Counted from the stretch's first letter, positions 25,051 through 53,150 are shown. The stretch is DNA of 62,839 nt from a virus (IMGVR_UViG_3300044844_000500:1-62839); one strand, 5' to 3'. The notes: generated by a model not told the origin, from the sequence alone. Translations and numbers: made by a program.

Positions 25051-27144
25051 TTACGCCTTTACAGCGCCACCTTCCAGCGCTTTCATGAGTTTGTACATGC
25101 GAGCCGCACCCTTGCGTCGACTGCCATTGCCCGCATTGCGTACCGCCTTGGCCGTGAAGACGAACTCTCCGTCAGACAGCATCGCCGGAATGGAGTCGGA
25201 CGTCCCCGTGCCAGGGCCGTTGATCGGGCCCGTTTTACGCGGGAACTCCGTCATCTTCATCTCGCCGCCGCGTGCCCGCTGTACCGGCTCTTGCCCGTAC
25301 AAGAGAGGGATGCCGTACAGGCCGGCTACGTTGTAGGGTTGCGCCACGCCTTGGGGCATGTTCGTGATGCCCGTAGGCATTGACACTGGGGCAGCCGTCT
25401 GCGCCATGCGAGCGTATGCGGGAGTTTCTACAAGAACAGGCCCACGAGGAGCTGGCCCCATCGAGCCCCTGGTCAGCCCGTATCCGTACAAATCCAGCTC
25501 TCGTTGACGGGCTTCAGCGCGTTCTCTCGATTCTTTTTCCTGCTCAGAAATCTTGTACAAGGGTTCTGGCTCGTCCGCAGGCTTCTTAAATGCCCCACCG
25601 GCCGCTGCAACACCAAGGCCGGCCCCCAACAACGGCCCGTACCGCCGCAACAACCCAGCATCCGGTGGCAGCCCAGGACGATCCGGCGAAAGATATTCGC
25701 CGTACAAGTCCTTGGCGCGTTGGATCAACCCCGGTGCCGAAGCGCCGGGCAGCGCCCCGGTGCCGATCGCCGCCTGCTGTGAGGGCGATACGGTATCCAT
25801 CCAACTCAAGTCCCCTTGAGGGGTGGTGGGCGGCGCAAACTGGCTGGGCGGCGGTGTAAAGGGCAATCCACCCGGTTCGCCAGCGGCCGGCAACATGCCT
25901 GCTGCCGTGCCGATCCGTTCGACGCCGCCGGCAGGGCCTGTCGCACCCGGAGCACCCGTTCCGGTAACTGCCGAAGCGGTGGGCGACGCAGGGATGGCAC
26001 CTTCGGCACCGGGCAGCGGCCCTGTGCCAATCGCCGCTTCCTGAGAAGCCGAGGTGACAGGCTGTTGTGGGCCTTGAAGGCCTTGCAACGCACCCGCAGT
26101 CAACCCGGCCATCGCACCCGAACGAAGTGCTTCACCCGGTTTCATGCCCATCACCAAGCCTGCGCCAGTGCCCAAAGCAGCCGTGGTCAGACCGGTGTTG
26201 AGCGCCGAACCGGCGGCTCCTGGCAAGTAGCTGCTCAAGCCCTTCAACGGGCTGCCAAGGCCTCCAAAGTCGCCGCCACCGCCGATGTAGCCTAGCGCAC
26301 CCGAGACCAGCGCATCCTTGATGTTTCCACCCGCTAATAGCGTGGTTCCAGCACCGGCAACCGCCGCCGCAGCCGGCGCGCTCATCAAGCCAAGACCCAT
26401 GGCCCCTGGTCCGAGGACCGTGGCCAACGCAACCGTAGCCAGGACTCGGCCAACCGGCGACTGAACGACCTTTTTGGCGATGTTTACAACGCTTTTGACG
26501 ACTCCGGTTACTGCCCCAACAACGCCTTTGACCAGTTTCTTGATAAAGTATTCAGGCAGCCCTGTATCGGGGTTGATCGTCCCCGATCCACCCATGCGCT
26601 TGAGCATCTGCGCCTCTTCCGGCGTGATGTGCGCAAGCATTGTGTCGCCATGTCGGCCTTTGGACGCCAGATACTGCGCCATGTCCGCTAGGCCACCCTG
26701 GGCCATGGCCATAGGAGCAACAGGCTCGGCCATTGCCGGGCCCATGGTTGCCGCTTGTTCTGCCCCTTGGATTTGACGTGATTTCAGCTCGTTGAGCACC
26801 GCAAGAACGGCGCTCAAAAACTCCATGTCAAACTCTTCGGGCAGGTCCTCTGGATCCACCCCTTCTGCGATCACCTCTTGCCGCCGTTTTTTGTACTCTC
26901 GCGGGCTTTGTAAAAGGTACTCAAAGAGCCCAATGGCGGCGTCTATCTCGTTCGGGGTAAGTTCCATCCCCTGCGAGTTGCGGTCAATCTCGGCACGCAG
27001 ATCTGTAACTGCCTGGGGATCCAACATCCCCATAGCCGTCGTTGCGGCATCATAAGCATCATAGCTGCTGACCGCCTGCGGGGCACGACCGTTGCCTTGC
27101 ATGGCTTCCATTCCGGGAAGCGACATGATGCCTTCATTTTCCAT
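25051..27144 (-). CDS. Virion protein with amphipathic membrane-active region and TINPxTGLPEYF module (697 aa)
   Basis: In order: helical N-domain (about 1-115); AMAQGGLADMAQYL, then GRHGDTMLAHITPEE and GSGTINPDTGLPEYF (about 145-200), a module shared with the 1426-aa protein; an amphipathic/hydrophobic stretch (IKKLVKGVVGAVTGVVKSVV, then Ala/Gly-rich to about 330); a Pro/Ala/Gly-rich linker; and a C-terminal block with RARGGEMKMTEFPRK and GPGTGTSDSIPAMLSDGEF, which is widespread in phage structural proteins. A role in membrane penetration during DNA ejection fits but is inferred. A promoter lies about 75-105 bases upstream. Confidence 0.75.
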   Translation of the reverse strand: MENEGIMSLPGMEAMQGNGRAPQAVSSYDAYDAATTAMGMLDPQAVTDLRAEIDRNSQGMELTPNEIDAAIGLFEYLLQSPREYKKRRQEVIAEGVDPEDLPEEFDMEFLSAVLAVLNELKSRQIQGAEQAATMGPAMAEPVAPMAMAQGGLADMAQYLASKGRHGDTMLAHITPEEAQMLKRMGGSGTINPDTGLPEYFIKKLVKGVVGAVTGVVKSVVNIAKKVVQSPVGRVLATVALATVLGPGAMGLGLMSAPAAAAVAGAGTTLLAGGNIKDALVSGALGYIGGGGDFGGLGSPLKGLSSYLPGAAGSALNTGLTTAALGTGAGLVMGMKPGEALRSGAMAGLTAGALQGLQGPQQPVTSASQEAAIGTGPLPGAEGAIPASPTASAVTGTGAPGATGPAGGVERIGTAAGMLPAAGEPGGLPFTPPPSQFAPPTTPQGDLSWMDTVSPSQQAAIGTGALPGASAPGLIQRAKDLYGEYLSPDRPGLPPDAGLLRRYGPLLGAGLGVAAAGGAFKKPADEPEPLYKISEQEKESRERAEARQRELDLYGYGLTRGSMGPAPRGPVLVETPAYARMAQTAAPVSMPTGITNMPQGVAQPYNVAGLYGIPLLYGQEPVQRARGGEMKMTEFPRKTGPINGPGTGTSDSIPAMLSDGEFVFTAKAVRNAGNGSRRKGAARMYKLMKALEGGAVKA

Positions 27145-45087: not shown

Positions 45088-45555
45088 TTACATGTGCAGA
45101 ATGTTTTCTGGATCACTGACCACGCCCAAAACCTCGTCGTCATTGATCAAACGGATCTCCCCACCATCGATGGGAATGCGTGCGCCTGCATATCGGCCGA
45201 AAATGATCCAGTCCCCCTCCTTGCACCACGCGCCGGTGGGAAATTTGGACTCATCGTTGTACGCCAGACTGCCAACCTTCAATACGTAGCCGCAAACGGT
45301 CGCAAGATTGGATTTGCGCTGAGTCTCCTCGGCCAAAACAATTCCGCCCTTGCTTTTTTCCGCGCCACGATAAGGAAGAATCGCGATCCGCCAACCTGTA
45401 GGCGTTGGGATACGATCCAGTACAGTCTCATGAAGCTTTGACGGGTCAAAGCCGTCCTCGGTATACGAGTCCTCAAGCCTTGGTCCCTTGTTCTCAGCCT
45501 CTTCGCGCCACTTGCGCTCCAATGCCGTCAAGCTTTCGTCTGCTACAGCTTCCAT
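45088..45555 (-). CDS. GroES-like co-chaperonin (155 aa)
   Basis: Ribosome site AGGAG before the second ATG (45555) decides the start. From about residue 45 the chaperonin-10 fold can be read: RIPTPTGWRIAILPYRGAEK, then SKGGIVLAEETQRKSNL, ATVCGYVLKVG, GDWIIFGRYAGARIPID and EIRLINDDEVLGVV. This equals a GroES domain with an N-terminal extension; the mobile-loop region is SKGGIVLAEETQRKSN, in the expected place. Like T4 gp31 it could team with host GroEL to fold the capsid protein. It lies between portal and scaffold. Confidence 0.88.
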   Translation of the reverse strand: MEAVADESLTALERKWREEAENKGPRLEDSYTEDGFDPSKLHETVLDRIPTPTGWRIAILPYRGAEKSKGGIVLAEETQRKSNLATVCGYVLKVGSLAYNDESKFPTGAWCKEGDWIIFGRYAGARIPIDGGEIRLINDDEVLGVVSDPENILHM

Positions 45556-45564
45556 CTGCATCTC

Positions 45565-48424: not shown

Positions 48425-48658
48425 TTATCTAAAACGCGCGGTCTTCTTGGCAATGGCCTTGGGCTGTTTGACGAACTGCTTGCCAGCGGCCTTGCCTGCC
48501 CGCTTGGCTCTTGTGGTCGCTGCGTATTCTTGCGGGGACAAGGACTTGATGGCGGCCTCCGGCAGATAGCGCTCGCCGGTCTTAGAGGATGGCTTACCGC
48601 TCTTGGTCCGCCATTTTTGGGCGGTCCAATTTTTCAGGCTTTGCTGCGGCGCTTTCAA
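48425..48658 (-). CDS. DUF5872-like basic protein, copy 2 (77 aa)
   Basis: Nearly the same protein as at 30595-30825: MKAPQQSLKNWTAQKWRTKS, ERYLPEAAIKSLSPQEYAAT and KQFVKQPKAIAKKTARFR. The copies differ at about a third of positions, so the duplication is not recent or the copies came from different sources. It overlaps its partner gene by 4 bases as in copy 1. Confidence 0.87.
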   Translation of the reverse strand: MKAPQQSLKNWTAQKWRTKSGKPSSKTGERYLPEAAIKSLSPQEYAATTRAKRAGKAAGKQFVKQPKAIAKKTARFR

Positions 48659-48855
48659 TCTTTATACCCTCCGCCCTTGGCCTTGTACTGCTTCGCCAAG
48701 AGCTGGGCTTTTCTCGCGGACCACTGGCCTGCGGCCGTACCTTGCGTTGCCGAGGCCTTGATCCTGCTGAACAAAGCTTTCCGCATGCCGGGCTTCGTGT
48801 AGTTGCCTGCTTGGTTCACGCGGCTCTTACTTGCTTTGGTGCTCTTGGTTGCCAT
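48655..48855 (-). CDS. Small basic protein NYTKPGMRK...WSARKAQLLA family, copy 2 (66 aa)
   Basis: I start it at the ATG at 48855 by alignment with copy 1; a GTG at 48873 overlapping the 1426-aa stop (GTGA) would add six residues. It reads NQAGNYTKPGMRKALFSRIK, GQWSARKAQLLAKQYKAKGG and GYKD. It directly follows the 1426-aa gene and precedes the portal. Confidence 0.82.
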   Translation of the reverse strand: MATKSTKASKSRVNQAGNYTKPGMRKALFSRIKASATQGTAAGQWSARKAQLLAKQYKAKGGGYKD

Positions 48856-48869
48856 GGCTGTGCCTTCGC

Positions 48870-51800
48870 TCACGCGGCCTTCAGTTTAGCAAGCTGGCCC
48901 TTGGCCGTCGAGGTGTCTACAAGACCCCCTTGAGCGTAGCCTCTTTGAAGTTGATCTCCAAGCTTTGACATCCACGTGTCCAAGATGTCTTGTGGCATCT
49001 CGTTTTCAACCGCCATCTGCCTCAATTCATCCAAAGAGTAAAGGCCTGGAGGAATGGTCTTAGAGAACCCTGGCAGGCGCTGGCCTTCGGTCACACTGAC
49101 CAGTCCAGCGTTTTGAAGATCACCGATCGATTCCCAATTGCCGCTTCTTACGAAGTCCTGCACGAAAGGCAAGTACTTTTCCTTGGGCGCGGCATTGCTC
49201 TTTCCCTTGATCTGAGTGATCTGGCTGAGATCGTTTTTTCCCTCCATAAGCTCAACCACTCGCTCTGCAAAAGCTTGGCCACGGAGCCCTTCTGCCCGCG
49301 CCTGTTTTGCTGCTTGATCCTGAGAAATACCTGGAGTAGAACCGACCTCGATCGTCACGTGGGGTTCGCCTTTCTCATCAACCAAAGAGTAGACTTTTGC
49401 TCGTCCGCTTTTGATGGCTTCCCAGCCGCCATGGCCGTAACTGGGATTACCAAACCTTTCGGACGCCTCTATCCAGTCGGGATGTCCTTTTGGAGGCTCG
49501 TACCCTCGAACAGAGTGCCCCATGGCCTCAGACTCGGCGACAAAGGACCCTGGACGATTGAGCTCAATCCAACGGAATTTTTCTGGGTATTCTTTGTAAA
49601 CCGGAAGCCCCTCCCTGGCTGACGCGCGAGCTGCGTTTGCTTTTGCAATCAGCTCCTGGTCGTATTCAAATGTCCTGCGAACTGCTTGGTCCATTGACAC
49701 CTTGTTCAACTGTTCGGGACGAATGCGCCCGCTGGCAAGGTCTTCCCGAAGAACATCGACCACGTGGTCAAACCCGAAGTTCCTCATAAGACCTCTGGCG
49801 GTGTAGACCTGGGTCTCGTCTGGCAGCTTGTAAATCCAAGGGTTCTGAATTGCCAAAAGCTCATCATCCCCCTCGTTAAACGACTTGTCGTTTTTGTAAA
49901 ACGACGCAGGCCTGGGATCAATCATGCGGTCCGTCAAATCTTCCCATGCTTGGCCTTGAGCGGTCTGCGACACAGGTGCTGGAGGCATGCCGGCCGTCGT
50001 GCGCTTTTGCGCAAGAGACATTCCTGGGGTCAGTTGTAAATTTTTGGCAACAATCCCTTGTTCCGCGAGCAGTCGAACGGGATCGTCCACCGTGCCCATT
50101 TCTTTTTTGACATAGTTCGTCAGGTTTCGGTCGATCCACTGGTTTAAGGCAACATTCTTCGGCTCGTCCTCAAGCCTTCTGATTGCATTGTCCACCTGCC
50201 ATTGGGAGGCATAGGGCCTTGGACCGGGCTTGTTTGAGATTCCCGCAATATCTTCCAACAGGGATTTTTCTTCCGCTGTCATTTCGTCGCTTTTGAATGC
50301 GGCCAATTGCTCTTCGACAGGGCCTTTGAGCCAGTTCCCTCCCTTGGGCTTGATGACATACGACGCTCCTGCGGGGCCCAAGGCACGGTTGTACTGCTGG
50401 AAGTCCTCGGCCAACATTCGCGCTGCCTCGCCCGCTTTCTCCGCGCCACGGGCCGCTGCACGCACCGGTGCCGCCGGGTTGACAAGGCTGCTTCCGATGT
50501 CGGCGGCTGAGTACAGGGCGCGCTGCGTGGGGTCCGTAGGCGGCTCAGGCCGCACGCCAAGGTCCGTCATTTTTTGCTTGATCCACTCACTGCCCATGAC
50601 CGGGCGCTCTGAGCCCAGCCCAGCCGGCGTCAAGAGCATGTTCGCCAAGTCAACCGGCGCACCGACGAGGTTGTACGGCATGTTCGCCACGCCCTGCGCA
50701 ACTGCGCGACTCAATGCTTCGTTTTCTTCTTGAGTCGCGCGTCGGCGCGTGCGCTGCTGCAAAGGTTTGCCGGACCGGAACGGATCGTCGTATTGCGGCC
50801 GTGCTTCTTTCTCACTTTCTTCGGAGGACTTTTTTACCTCACCGCCTTCCTCAAACCGGCGCTTGGTCAGGGAGCCTTTGGTAAGTGAAGGTTTTTCCAA
50901 GGTCGGGGCGTTGAACGTGTCACGAGACAGGCCACGGGCCATGTTCTCCGCCTCTCGCGCCTTTAGCTTGTACGTTCGTGCAAGCTCCATGAAGTCGTCT
51001 TTGGCCGTGTTCTTGAGTGCCTTGGGCGATGTGCCTTTGCTCGTGGTCAACGACTCGACTTCCATCGCCATGCCCTTACCAAAGCCCTCACTGCTCTTGG
51101 CTTCCAACGGCCGCTTCGTGATCTTTTTGACCGTCTTTGTAGACGGCGTTTCACTGTAGCGCGTCTCACTCATGCCCGGCATTTCCTGGAGCATGTTGCG
51201 CGACTCGCTGTAGTACTCCGGATCGTCCCCGTACAGGTTGTATTCGTTCACGCGCTGCAACAAGGCGTCCGTGCTCACGTCCCCGCCGCGCGCAAATGCG
51301 AACACCGGGCGCGGCATCATCGGCGAACGAATCATGTTGCCCAGCCGGTCCGTCATGTAGCCCATGTTGCGCTGACCACCCAGCGGCTGCGGAGCGAGTG
51401 ACGGGTTCTGCTGCAAAAGGTCCACGGCCGTCGGGCCTTGGTAAGTCATAACTGGGATGTAGGGCCGCGTGCCCGGCATACCCCGAGCAACAGGCTTTGG
51501 GGGAACAGGCGTAGGCGCGGGTGCTGGCGCGGGCGGCAAAATGGGTGAAGGAACCGTCGGCTGGCGCGGCGTCTCCTGGCCCGGGAGCCGTGGCCCAACA
51601 AAATCTGGCGGCAACGGTGGATAGTCCGTCCCAGGGCCTGATAGCGGTGGCGTCGAGGGCTTCCATCCCTTGGACACGGCCAACGCATCGGCCGACGTGA
51701 TTCGCCCGTCCCCATTGGTGTCGTACTGCAAATCCGGCGTGATCTTTTTGACCGCCATCTGCAAAACCCGCTCCGCCAATGCCTGATTAGGATTAGCCCC

Positions 51801-53150
51801 TTTAGGTGGCTGTGCTACAGGCGGCTGTGACTGCTTTGGCGGCAGCGGCGGTCCTACGAAATCCGAGGGCGGGGACTGGTTTGGTTGGGGCAAGAAAATC
51901 GGTGCGCCCATGTTCGGCGACGAGTTAACCGGCGGGGTATTGGTCGTCGGGCTCGGAAGCGGTTGATTACTTACCGGGCTGTTGTCCCACCACTGGCCAC
52001 CGGAGTAAAACTTCTGACCGTCTGGAGATTTAATCGGGGCATACTCGCTTTCGCGACCGCCCACGCCCGAAATTGGCTTAATAAGTGCGGGCCCTCCACG
52101 AACGATCAGATCCTCCCTACGAGAGTCTGGCGCTGGCTGGGTAGCCGCTGGGGGTGCAACGGTGGGGGCTTGACGCGTGGGTTGTGACGGCGTTGTCGCT
52201 CCACGGATCAAGGACCCAAAGTTAAAGGTCGGCACCGGAGAGACGCCCGTGGGAATCGGCGATCCGCTTAGCCCCTTTTGCCCAGCCGCGCCTACGCCCG
52301 GCGTCTCGACCAACGGCGATACGGGGGATCGGGGGGTTGTTGATGTTGCTGCTGCGGCCGATGGCGGTGTTGCTGACGCAGGTGTTGCCGCTGCCGATGT
52401 TGCCGCCGGTGGTGGCAGATTTGAGGCCGCGATGACAGCCGCCACCTGATTGGAGATTGGCCTTAACACAGAAGCAAAATACTCCGGCAACCCCGTCTTC
52501 GGATTGATCGTCCCCGCCCCGCCCATGCCCTTGAGCATGTCCCGCGCCGAAGGACTTAAATACGCCAGCTTCGTGTCCCCGTTGCGCCCGGCTTTCGCCA
52601 CACGCCTCAACATATCCTTTGCCTTCACCTCGCCTCCCTTCGCCATAAAGGCACTGGCCACGGACAACGAGCCCAGGTTGTATTTGCTCGGATCACTGAC
52701 CACGTCAATCGCAAGCCCTCGCTGTGCAGCCGCTTCCTGCGCCCGCCGGGCCGCCGCCTTCTGAAACTCCACCACCGCCTGCGGGTCAAACGACACCTCC
52801 GGCTTGGCAACCGTGAACGGCGCTAACTCCGGCGCGGCCGGCCCAGCATAGTCCTCGGTCCGTGGCCCTTCATTCCAGGCGTTGATCGACTTTTCGTATT
52901 CCCCATACGCTTTTTCGTAAGGGGTATACACGTCCCGGTTGTACGCCTCTACCGCCCGATCGTACGCCGCCAACCTTTCAAGATCCGCCTGCTTCCCCTC
53001 CAAATACTCCCGGTCCGCCTTGGACAAGAAAGGCTGCTGGCTCGGGTTCGCTATCCCCCCGAACGCAAACCGCTGAACAGGCATCTCACTGTTCAGGTCG
53101 TTAGGCACCGATACATTTTCAGCGCCCTGGAAAGGCAGGTAATTAGGCAT
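48870..53150 (-). CDS. Giant multidomain protein between TerL and portal, with EF-hand-like loop and PcfJ-like region (1426 aa)
   Basis: In order: a start with FAFGGIANPS (about 28), a helical segment, MAKGGEVKAKDML and NGDTKLAYLSPS then GTINPKTGLPEYF (about 168-225), a long Pro-rich linker, DTNGDGRITSADAL (about 476-490, EF-hand/dockerin-like), a second Pro-rich linker, FARGGDVSTDALL (about 618), FEEGGEVKKS, a hydrophobic Gly/Ala part, and a C-terminal domain with MGHSVRGYE (about 1210), VYSLVDEKGEPHVTIEV and ITQIKGKSNAAPKEKYLPFV, which resembles PcfJ-like proteins; it ends with YAQGGLVDTS. It may be an injected polyvalent protein or very large head accessory. The class is inferred; the coding frame is certain. 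Confidence 0.75.
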   Translation of the reverse strand: MPNYLPFQGAENVSVPNDLNSEMPVQRFAFGGIANPSQQPFLSKADREYLEGKQADLERLAAYDRAVEAYNRDVYTPYEKAYGEYEKSINAWNEGPRTEDYAGPAAPELAPFTVAKPEVSFDPQAVVEFQKAAARRAQEAAAQRGLAIDVVSDPSKYNLGSLSVASAFMAKGGEVKAKDMLRRVAKAGRNGDTKLAYLSPSARDMLKGMGGAGTINPKTGLPEYFASVLRPISNQVAAVIAASNLPPPAATSAAATPASATPPSAAAATSTTPRSPVSPLVETPGVGAAGQKGLSGSPIPTGVSPVPTFNFGSLIRGATTPSQPTRQAPTVAPPAATQPAPDSRREDLIVRGGPALIKPISGVGGRESEYAPIKSPDGQKFYSGGQWWDNSPVSNQPLPSPTTNTPPVNSSPNMGAPIFLPQPNQSPPSDFVGPPLPPKQSQPPVAQPPKGANPNQALAERVLQMAVKKITPDLQYDTNGDGRITSADALAVSKGWKPSTPPLSGPGTDYPPLPPDFVGPRLPGQETPRQPTVPSPILPPAPAPAPTPVPPKPVARGMPGTRPYIPVMTYQGPTAVDLLQQNPSLAPQPLGGQRNMGYMTDRLGNMIRSPMMPRPVFAFARGGDVSTDALLQRVNEYNLYGDDPEYYSESRNMLQEMPGMSETRYSETPSTKTVKKITKRPLEAKSSEGFGKGMAMEVESLTTSKGTSPKALKNTAKDDFMELARTYKLKAREAENMARGLSRDTFNAPTLEKPSLTKGSLTKRRFEEGGEVKKSSEESEKEARPQYDDPFRSGKPLQQRTRRRATQEENEALSRAVAQGVANMPYNLVGAPVDLANMLLTPAGLGSERPVMGSEWIKQKMTDLGVRPEPPTDPTQRALYSAADIGSSLVNPAAPVRAAARGAEKAGEAARMLAEDFQQYNRALGPAGASYVIKPKGGNWLKGPVEEQLAAFKSDEMTAEEKSLLEDIAGISNKPGPRPYASQWQVDNAIRRLEDEPKNVALNQWIDRNLTNYVKKEMGTVDDPVRLLAEQGIVAKNLQLTPGMSLAQKRTTAGMPPAPVSQTAQGQAWEDLTDRMIDPRPASFYKNDKSFNEGDDELLAIQNPWIYKLPDETQVYTARGLMRNFGFDHVVDVLREDLASGRIRPEQLNKVSMDQAVRRTFEYDQELIAKANAARASAREGLPVYKEYPEKFRWIELNRPGSFVAESEAMGHSVRGYEPPKGHPDWIEASERFGNPSYGHGGWEAIKSGRAKVYSLVDEKGEPHVTIEVGSTPGISQDQAAKQARAEGLRGQAFAERVVELMEGKNDLSQITQIKGKSNAAPKEKYLPFVQDFVRSGNWESIGDLQNAGLVSVTEGQRLPGFSKTIPPGLYSLDELRQMAVENEMPQDILDTWMSKLGDQLQRGYAQGGLVDTSTAKGQLAKLKAA

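Follow-up and report, generated by a model that had tools for sequence, protein, structure and literature searches.

Genes at the TerL-portal locus

The source record, a viral contig, is 62,839 bases long; this whole stretch is referred to below as the window. A large gene on its minus strand lies among virion and packaging genes, between those for the terminase large subunit (TerL) and the portal protein. This placement was described in the initial annotation and holds: the 1426-aa frame is open throughout, both flanks match by PHROG, and the sequence strings quoted at that time are all found in the protein. The following genes were assigned.

48870..53150 (-), whole ORF of the 1426-aa polyvalent-type protein; open frame, same-slot homologues in related phage contigs
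53185..54702 (-), TerL; phrog_38 (1e-114), PF17289
46082..48409 (-), portal protein; phrog_1216 (3e-39)
48425..48873 (-), pair of small basic ORFs, at 48655-48873 and 48425-48658, between the 1426-aa gene and the portal gene

A phage-encoded GroES-like co-chaperonin (45088-45561, minus strand; Cpn10, E 4e-10) is kept downstream of the portal gene in relatives.

A gene of this size had been considered unexpected at this position. Loci were collected by TerL- and portal-anchored scans with both genes on one contig, which gave 114 loci, including some duplicates. In all 114 the interval between the two genes carried an ORF of 250 aa or more; in this phage group, a big ORF at the TerL-portal slot is the rule. 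The window's own group, defined by TerL at least 58% identical, comprised 95 loci with 85 distinct slot proteins, which fell into 74 clusters (75% identity, 80% coverage). Pfam domains among the 74 representatives were DUF6973 (21), LPD23 (6), PcfJ (3), CBM_14 (3), Zeta_toxin, ART-PolyVal, DUF6884 and DUF4214 (2 each) and SLT (1). The PcfJ-type motif GH[SC]VxG[YF] was found by pattern in 32 representatives. One slot protein (L225:2941-8988) contains a Zeta_toxin domain (E 5e-12), and another (L064:4534-8124) has an SLT lytic transglycosylase at its N-terminus (2e-11). PADLOC, run on 37 homologues, gave two single matches only.

Architecture of the slot protein

The window protein has the following segments and motifs.

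52476..53150 (-), N-terminal trunk, conserved, aa 1-225; 82-83% identity in relatives with other cassettes
53049..53069 (-), GG motif 1, FAFGGIA, aa 28-34; conserved in homologues
52467..52661 (-), FMAKGG and TINP module, aa 164-228; common to a 697-aa tail/ejection-cluster protein
51486..52475 (-), Pro-rich spacer of variable sequence, aa 226-555; a close relative, L004, has unrelated sequence here
51687..51722 (-), EF-hand/dockerin-type loop DTNGDGRITSAD, aa 477-488; common to L057, absent from the L004 version of the segment
50826..51479 (-), second part of the trunk, also conserved, aa 558-775
51276..51296 (-), GG motif 3, FARGGDV, aa 619-625
50826..50861 (-), cassette seam RRFEEGGEVKKS, aa 764-775; DNA identity to L057 (96%), L059 and others stops abruptly
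50361..50825 (-), cassette leader, aa 776-930, common to PcfJ and ART-like cassettes; DNA alignments of the window with L055 and L054
49641..50363 (-), helical conserved region (VIKPKGGNW ... NYVKKEMGT ...), aa 930-1170, upstream of the PcfJ-like domain; alignment, model pLDDT
49020..49640 (-), PcfJ-like domain, its fold predicted to be GNAT-like, aa 1171-1377; PF14284 in aligned homologues, model and fold matches
49128..49720 (-), stretch where L004 carries unrelated DNA instead, aa 1144-1342; blastn gap, flanks 95% and 94% identical
48873..48938 (-), conserved C-terminal tail YAQGGLVDTSTAKGQLAKLKAA, aa 1405-1426; DNA 94-100% identical in relatives with different cassettes

The trunk had no Pfam or PHROG match in the window protein. 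The TINP module noted in the initial annotation is present (aa 164-224), and the 697-aa protein encoded at 25051-27144 on the minus strand contains it as well (E 6e-14). The sequence FMAKGG...GGAGTINP also occurs, with variation, in a protein of phage DSL-LC04 annotated as tail tape measure, the cluster of which includes a DNA transfer protein. The 697-aa protein itself likewise carries GG motifs, and its C-terminal end matches tape-measure proteins. In L004, the spacer is replaced (aa 225-569). Between the near-identical genes of L114 and L117, the copy number of the repeat PGATLPGQVNATT differs at about aa 530-620 of the slot protein.

The loop within the spacer had been proposed to bind calcium. 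It is a good match to the pattern, the chance of which was 0.0018 in shuffles of the whole protein, and Dockerin_1 scored it below cut-off (16.7 bits against the curated score of 22.9; E 0.008). The pattern occurs in only 3 of the 74 homologues, two of them at other positions. Calcium binding as a feature of the family was rejected, the loop lying in a variable segment and not being conserved.

Four or five AxGG motifs had been counted. Four were located in the 1426-aa protein (aa 29, 170, 620 and 1406), together with one variant, RFEEGGEV, at aa 766. Across the whole window A.GG was not enriched (24 observed, 21.5 expected). Among homologues enrichment was strong: the wider GG motif was observed 102 times in 30 homologues (8.8 expected), and [FYM]A.GG 162 times (7.5 expected from local shuffles), with the motif present in 62 of the 74 homologues. 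In many homologues GG motifs are found close to the N-terminus and again 19-28 residues before the C-terminus. AxGG is better read as a mark of module boundaries than as an independent domain.

Exchange of cassettes between closely related phages

The portal protein of L057 is 100% identical to that of the window. The DNA of the two slot genes is 96-98% identical over the compared trunk, except for a short variable stretch, up to KRRFEEGGEVKKS; past this point it is unrelated, and from VDTSTAKGQLAKLKAA it is 100% identical again. In place of PcfJ, the L057 cassette contains LPD23 and an HExxH motif. In L055 the swap occurs at PGAS, leading to ART-like sequence, and the gene is window-like again at the tail; the ART call depends on the WHGSP motif only, Pfam giving a weak RES match. 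DUF6973 cassettes were found in L059 (by Pfam) and L069 (by sequence match), and L062 has LPD23 with an added DUF6884. One cassette of L059 is missing from L069, with the junction lying within the common GGEVKKS. Throughout these exchanges, the two small basic ORFs stay near-constant while the cassettes differ (460-bp alignment, seven relatives).

In the slot protein, exchangeable cassettes thus lie between a trunk and a C-terminal tail that are both conserved. In L107 the trunk and the PcfJ protein are encoded separately: the trunk gene stops at TKKRFAEGGPVEGELSQ, a PcfJ gene of its own follows, and the split lies just past a GG seam. A similar arrangement, with one gene for the trunk and an adjacent one for a second large protein, is seen in L149, L165, L173 and L174; this second protein has a PcfJ-like motif in L149, L165 and L173.

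Breakpoints were defined strictly, as places where identity is lost abruptly at the end of a block that is 94% identical or more. Of these, 40 of 96 fell at GG windows, where 11.3 were expected; the breakpoints are not independent, because many pairs have the tail and trunk seams in common. A looser analysis that admitted diverged pairs gave no GG enrichment (251 observed, 336 expected). Only the strict blocks were used, since the looser analysis is dominated by ordinary divergence. At the protein level, 21 of 58 breakpoints lay at GG (9.4 expected), by a method that over-extends. Seams at GG were seen in several separate lineages, e.g. L077/L083, L094/L098, L149/L173 and L205/L206. Several exchanges lie away from GG motifs, e.g. 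window/L004 at aa 1144-1342 and the PGAS seam. From the aligned DNA, GG motifs appear often to mark the seams of cassette exchange. RAEGSPxEGE is a second recurrent linker at cassette breakpoints (L095, L096, L098, L104 and others).

The PcfJ-like region and its predicted fold

The C-terminal part had been called PcfJ-like, and three lines of evidence agree with this: PF14284 matches in homologues, structural matches in BFVD, and the 'PcfJ-like protein' annotation of a homologue in phage DSL-LC04. Residues 900-1426 have 53 relatives in IMG/VR. PF14284 matches 13 of 30 homologues at E up to 0.5 (best 5e-9) and exceeds the gathering score in the C-terminal domain of six of the seven homologues that were scanned singly; the aligned homologues share about 46% identity with the window copy over this domain. 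The PcfJ blocks GHxVxGY, P[HT]xTxE and QxKGxxN are present in the alignments, and the conserved order GH[CS]VxGY ... P[HT]xTxE ... QIKGKxN is common to the family. The window copy differs from it: PF14284 gave no match on the window protein itself, which reads HSV and not HCV, has an insertion and places the domain inside a 1426-aa protein. Three types of core were aligned, the canonical MGHCVGGYC, the window's MGHSVRGYE and a diverged type in L004. For the homologue L013, identity with the window over the PcfJ-like domain is 46%.

The phage DSL-LC04 was the sole match when a phage collection was searched with the 1426-aa protein. Its major capsid protein, TerL and portal are 90%, 78% and 72% identical to those of the window, respectively, and its PcfJ-like protein (OR003939) occupies the same gene position and has a homologous PcfJ core. 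This protein differs in being 825 aa long and of the canonical HCVGGY type, with 25% identity over aa 911-1373.

A search of PDB sequences with aa 900-1426 gave no match. The model of aa 910-1377 had a mean pLDDT of 83, and that of the canonical L013 domain a pLDDT of 88.6 and a pTM of 0.82. In BFVD the structure matches of the model were PcfJ-like phage proteins (E 6e-28). In the PDB structure search, 50 of the 50 VIA rows were GNAT-superfamily transferases for both models (for the L013 domain, one was an L-PGS). Hat1 aligned to the aa 910-1377 model with Z 7.6 (122 residues, 4.3 A) and, as the best match, to the L013 domain model with Z 8.9 (121 residues, 3.6 A); only three chains reach Z 8. 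Foldseek matches were weak, the best (ESCO1, E 2.5e-3) not falling below 0.001. The AlphaFold models of the PcfJ-like domain therein resemble GNAT acyltransferases. The GNAT acetyl-CoA loop (R/Q)xxGx(G/A) between strand 4 and helix 3 is not evident in the models, where IKG closes the strand and the loop has the sequence KxNxxPxx. QIKGKG of some homologues resembles the acyl-CoA loop pattern, but stands at the strand end. Because the typical loop is not evident, acetyltransferase activity is put forward as a hypothesis. In the literature searched, we found no function for PcfJ-like proteins.

A proposed dedicated slot for delivered effectors

Polyvalent proteins of phages, with ARTs and GNATs among their reported domains, show recombinational mosaicism and are likely packaged (Iyer et al. 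2017, PMC5512222). The slot protein resembles them as a large multidomain protein beside virion genes with mosaic architectures, and LPD23, ART-PolyVal and HExxH occupy the same slot in relatives of the window, which favours the polyvalent reading of the initial annotation. The window copy has one recognised effector-type domain besides the TINP module. The present system differs in that one fixed TerL-portal slot is used and cassettes are swapped between near-identical phages, in its repeated GG linker and conserved C-terminal tail, and in the PcfJ domain, which is not named in PMC5512222 (0 occurrences).

We favour, at a probability of about 0.62, a phage polyvalent protein in a dedicated TerL-portal effector slot, the swappable cassettes of which would reach the host together with the phage genome. 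The gene position suggests a virion-associated protein, and the TINP module in common with the tail/ejection-cluster protein also speaks for this reading. The virion would handle the protein by its trunk and short C-terminal tail, and the exchangeable effector cassettes would be the stretches that lie between GG-motif linkers. The cassette of the window, PcfJ-like and predicted to be GNAT-like, would most likely be a transferase modifying a host molecule. The protein would most likely be packaged alongside the DNA and enter the cell with infection. Swaps are seen directly in the aligned genes; homologous recombination at the repeated linkers and conserved ends may be their route, and would exchange cassettes with the rest of the genome hardly altered. 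Probably the swaps let each phage deliver a different tool into the infected bacterium.

The fixed TerL-portal position would also suit a head or portal assembly protein, such as a minor head protein, scaffold or packaging accessory. This protein would remain in the virion or be taken out of it and would not act as an effector, and its variable middle would be fast-evolving filler. The conserved trunk and tail, the Pro-rich spacer and the second copy of the TINP module in a tail-cluster protein are in keeping with such a role. However, the variable parts match polyvalent or enzyme families (LPD23, ART-PolyVal, Zeta toxin, SLT), and whole segments are exchanged with abrupt ends rather than by gradual drift, so that we consider this explanation unlikely. 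The MuF polymorphic toxins of temperate phages (Jamet et al. 2017, PMC5576092) also join a constant N-terminal part to exchangeable effectors and adjoin the portal gene, which raises the thought of a toxin against other bacteria or phages with cognate immunity genes. MuF genes lie downstream of the portal, whereas the window gene lies upstream, and the cassettes here are internal, between trunk and constant tail. No MuF family match was obtained for the window protein in Pfam and PHROG scans, its trunk included. No co-varying immunity gene is seen adjoining, because the two small downstream genes are nearly identical across relatives with different cassettes. A MuF toxin with immunity was rejected on these grounds, and a MuF-like toxin in the broader sense is very improbable.

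The GG motifs might instead be cleavage sites at which a maturation protease frees single effector units. They lie at module borders and near both protein ends in many homologues, the trunk and PcfJ can be separate genes, some cassettes contain HExxH motifs, and DdrB of phage P1 is processed before packaging (PMC5512222). No protease reading the GG motif was identified, though, and the motif may be a mere flexible linker or docking site; we give cleavage a low probability. It is compatible with the polyvalent effector slot, not exclusive of it. In a broader version of the latter, which we put forward tentatively and as less likely than not, the GG linkers would act at two levels, in the DNA as recombination seams and in the protein as borders that may also be cleaved. 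The phage population as a whole would then have a combinatorial repertoire of injected effectors, and the PcfJ-like domain, which is widespread, would be a GNAT-fold transferase that has gone unrecognised.

In the literature searched, neither the slot nor the GG seams were found described, nor was a GNAT-like fold of PcfJ, and PcfJ appeared together with phages in one incidental mention only. If the polyvalent reading is true, these phages form a natural set of near-identical genomes differing mainly in one putative delivered effector, and polyvalent cassette function therefore becomes directly testable. A GNAT-like fold would be a first mechanistic lead for PcfJ-like proteins. Core homologues also occur in seven bacterial genome records (L230-L236), mostly Burkholderiales and other betaproteobacterial MAGs, a possible hint at the host.
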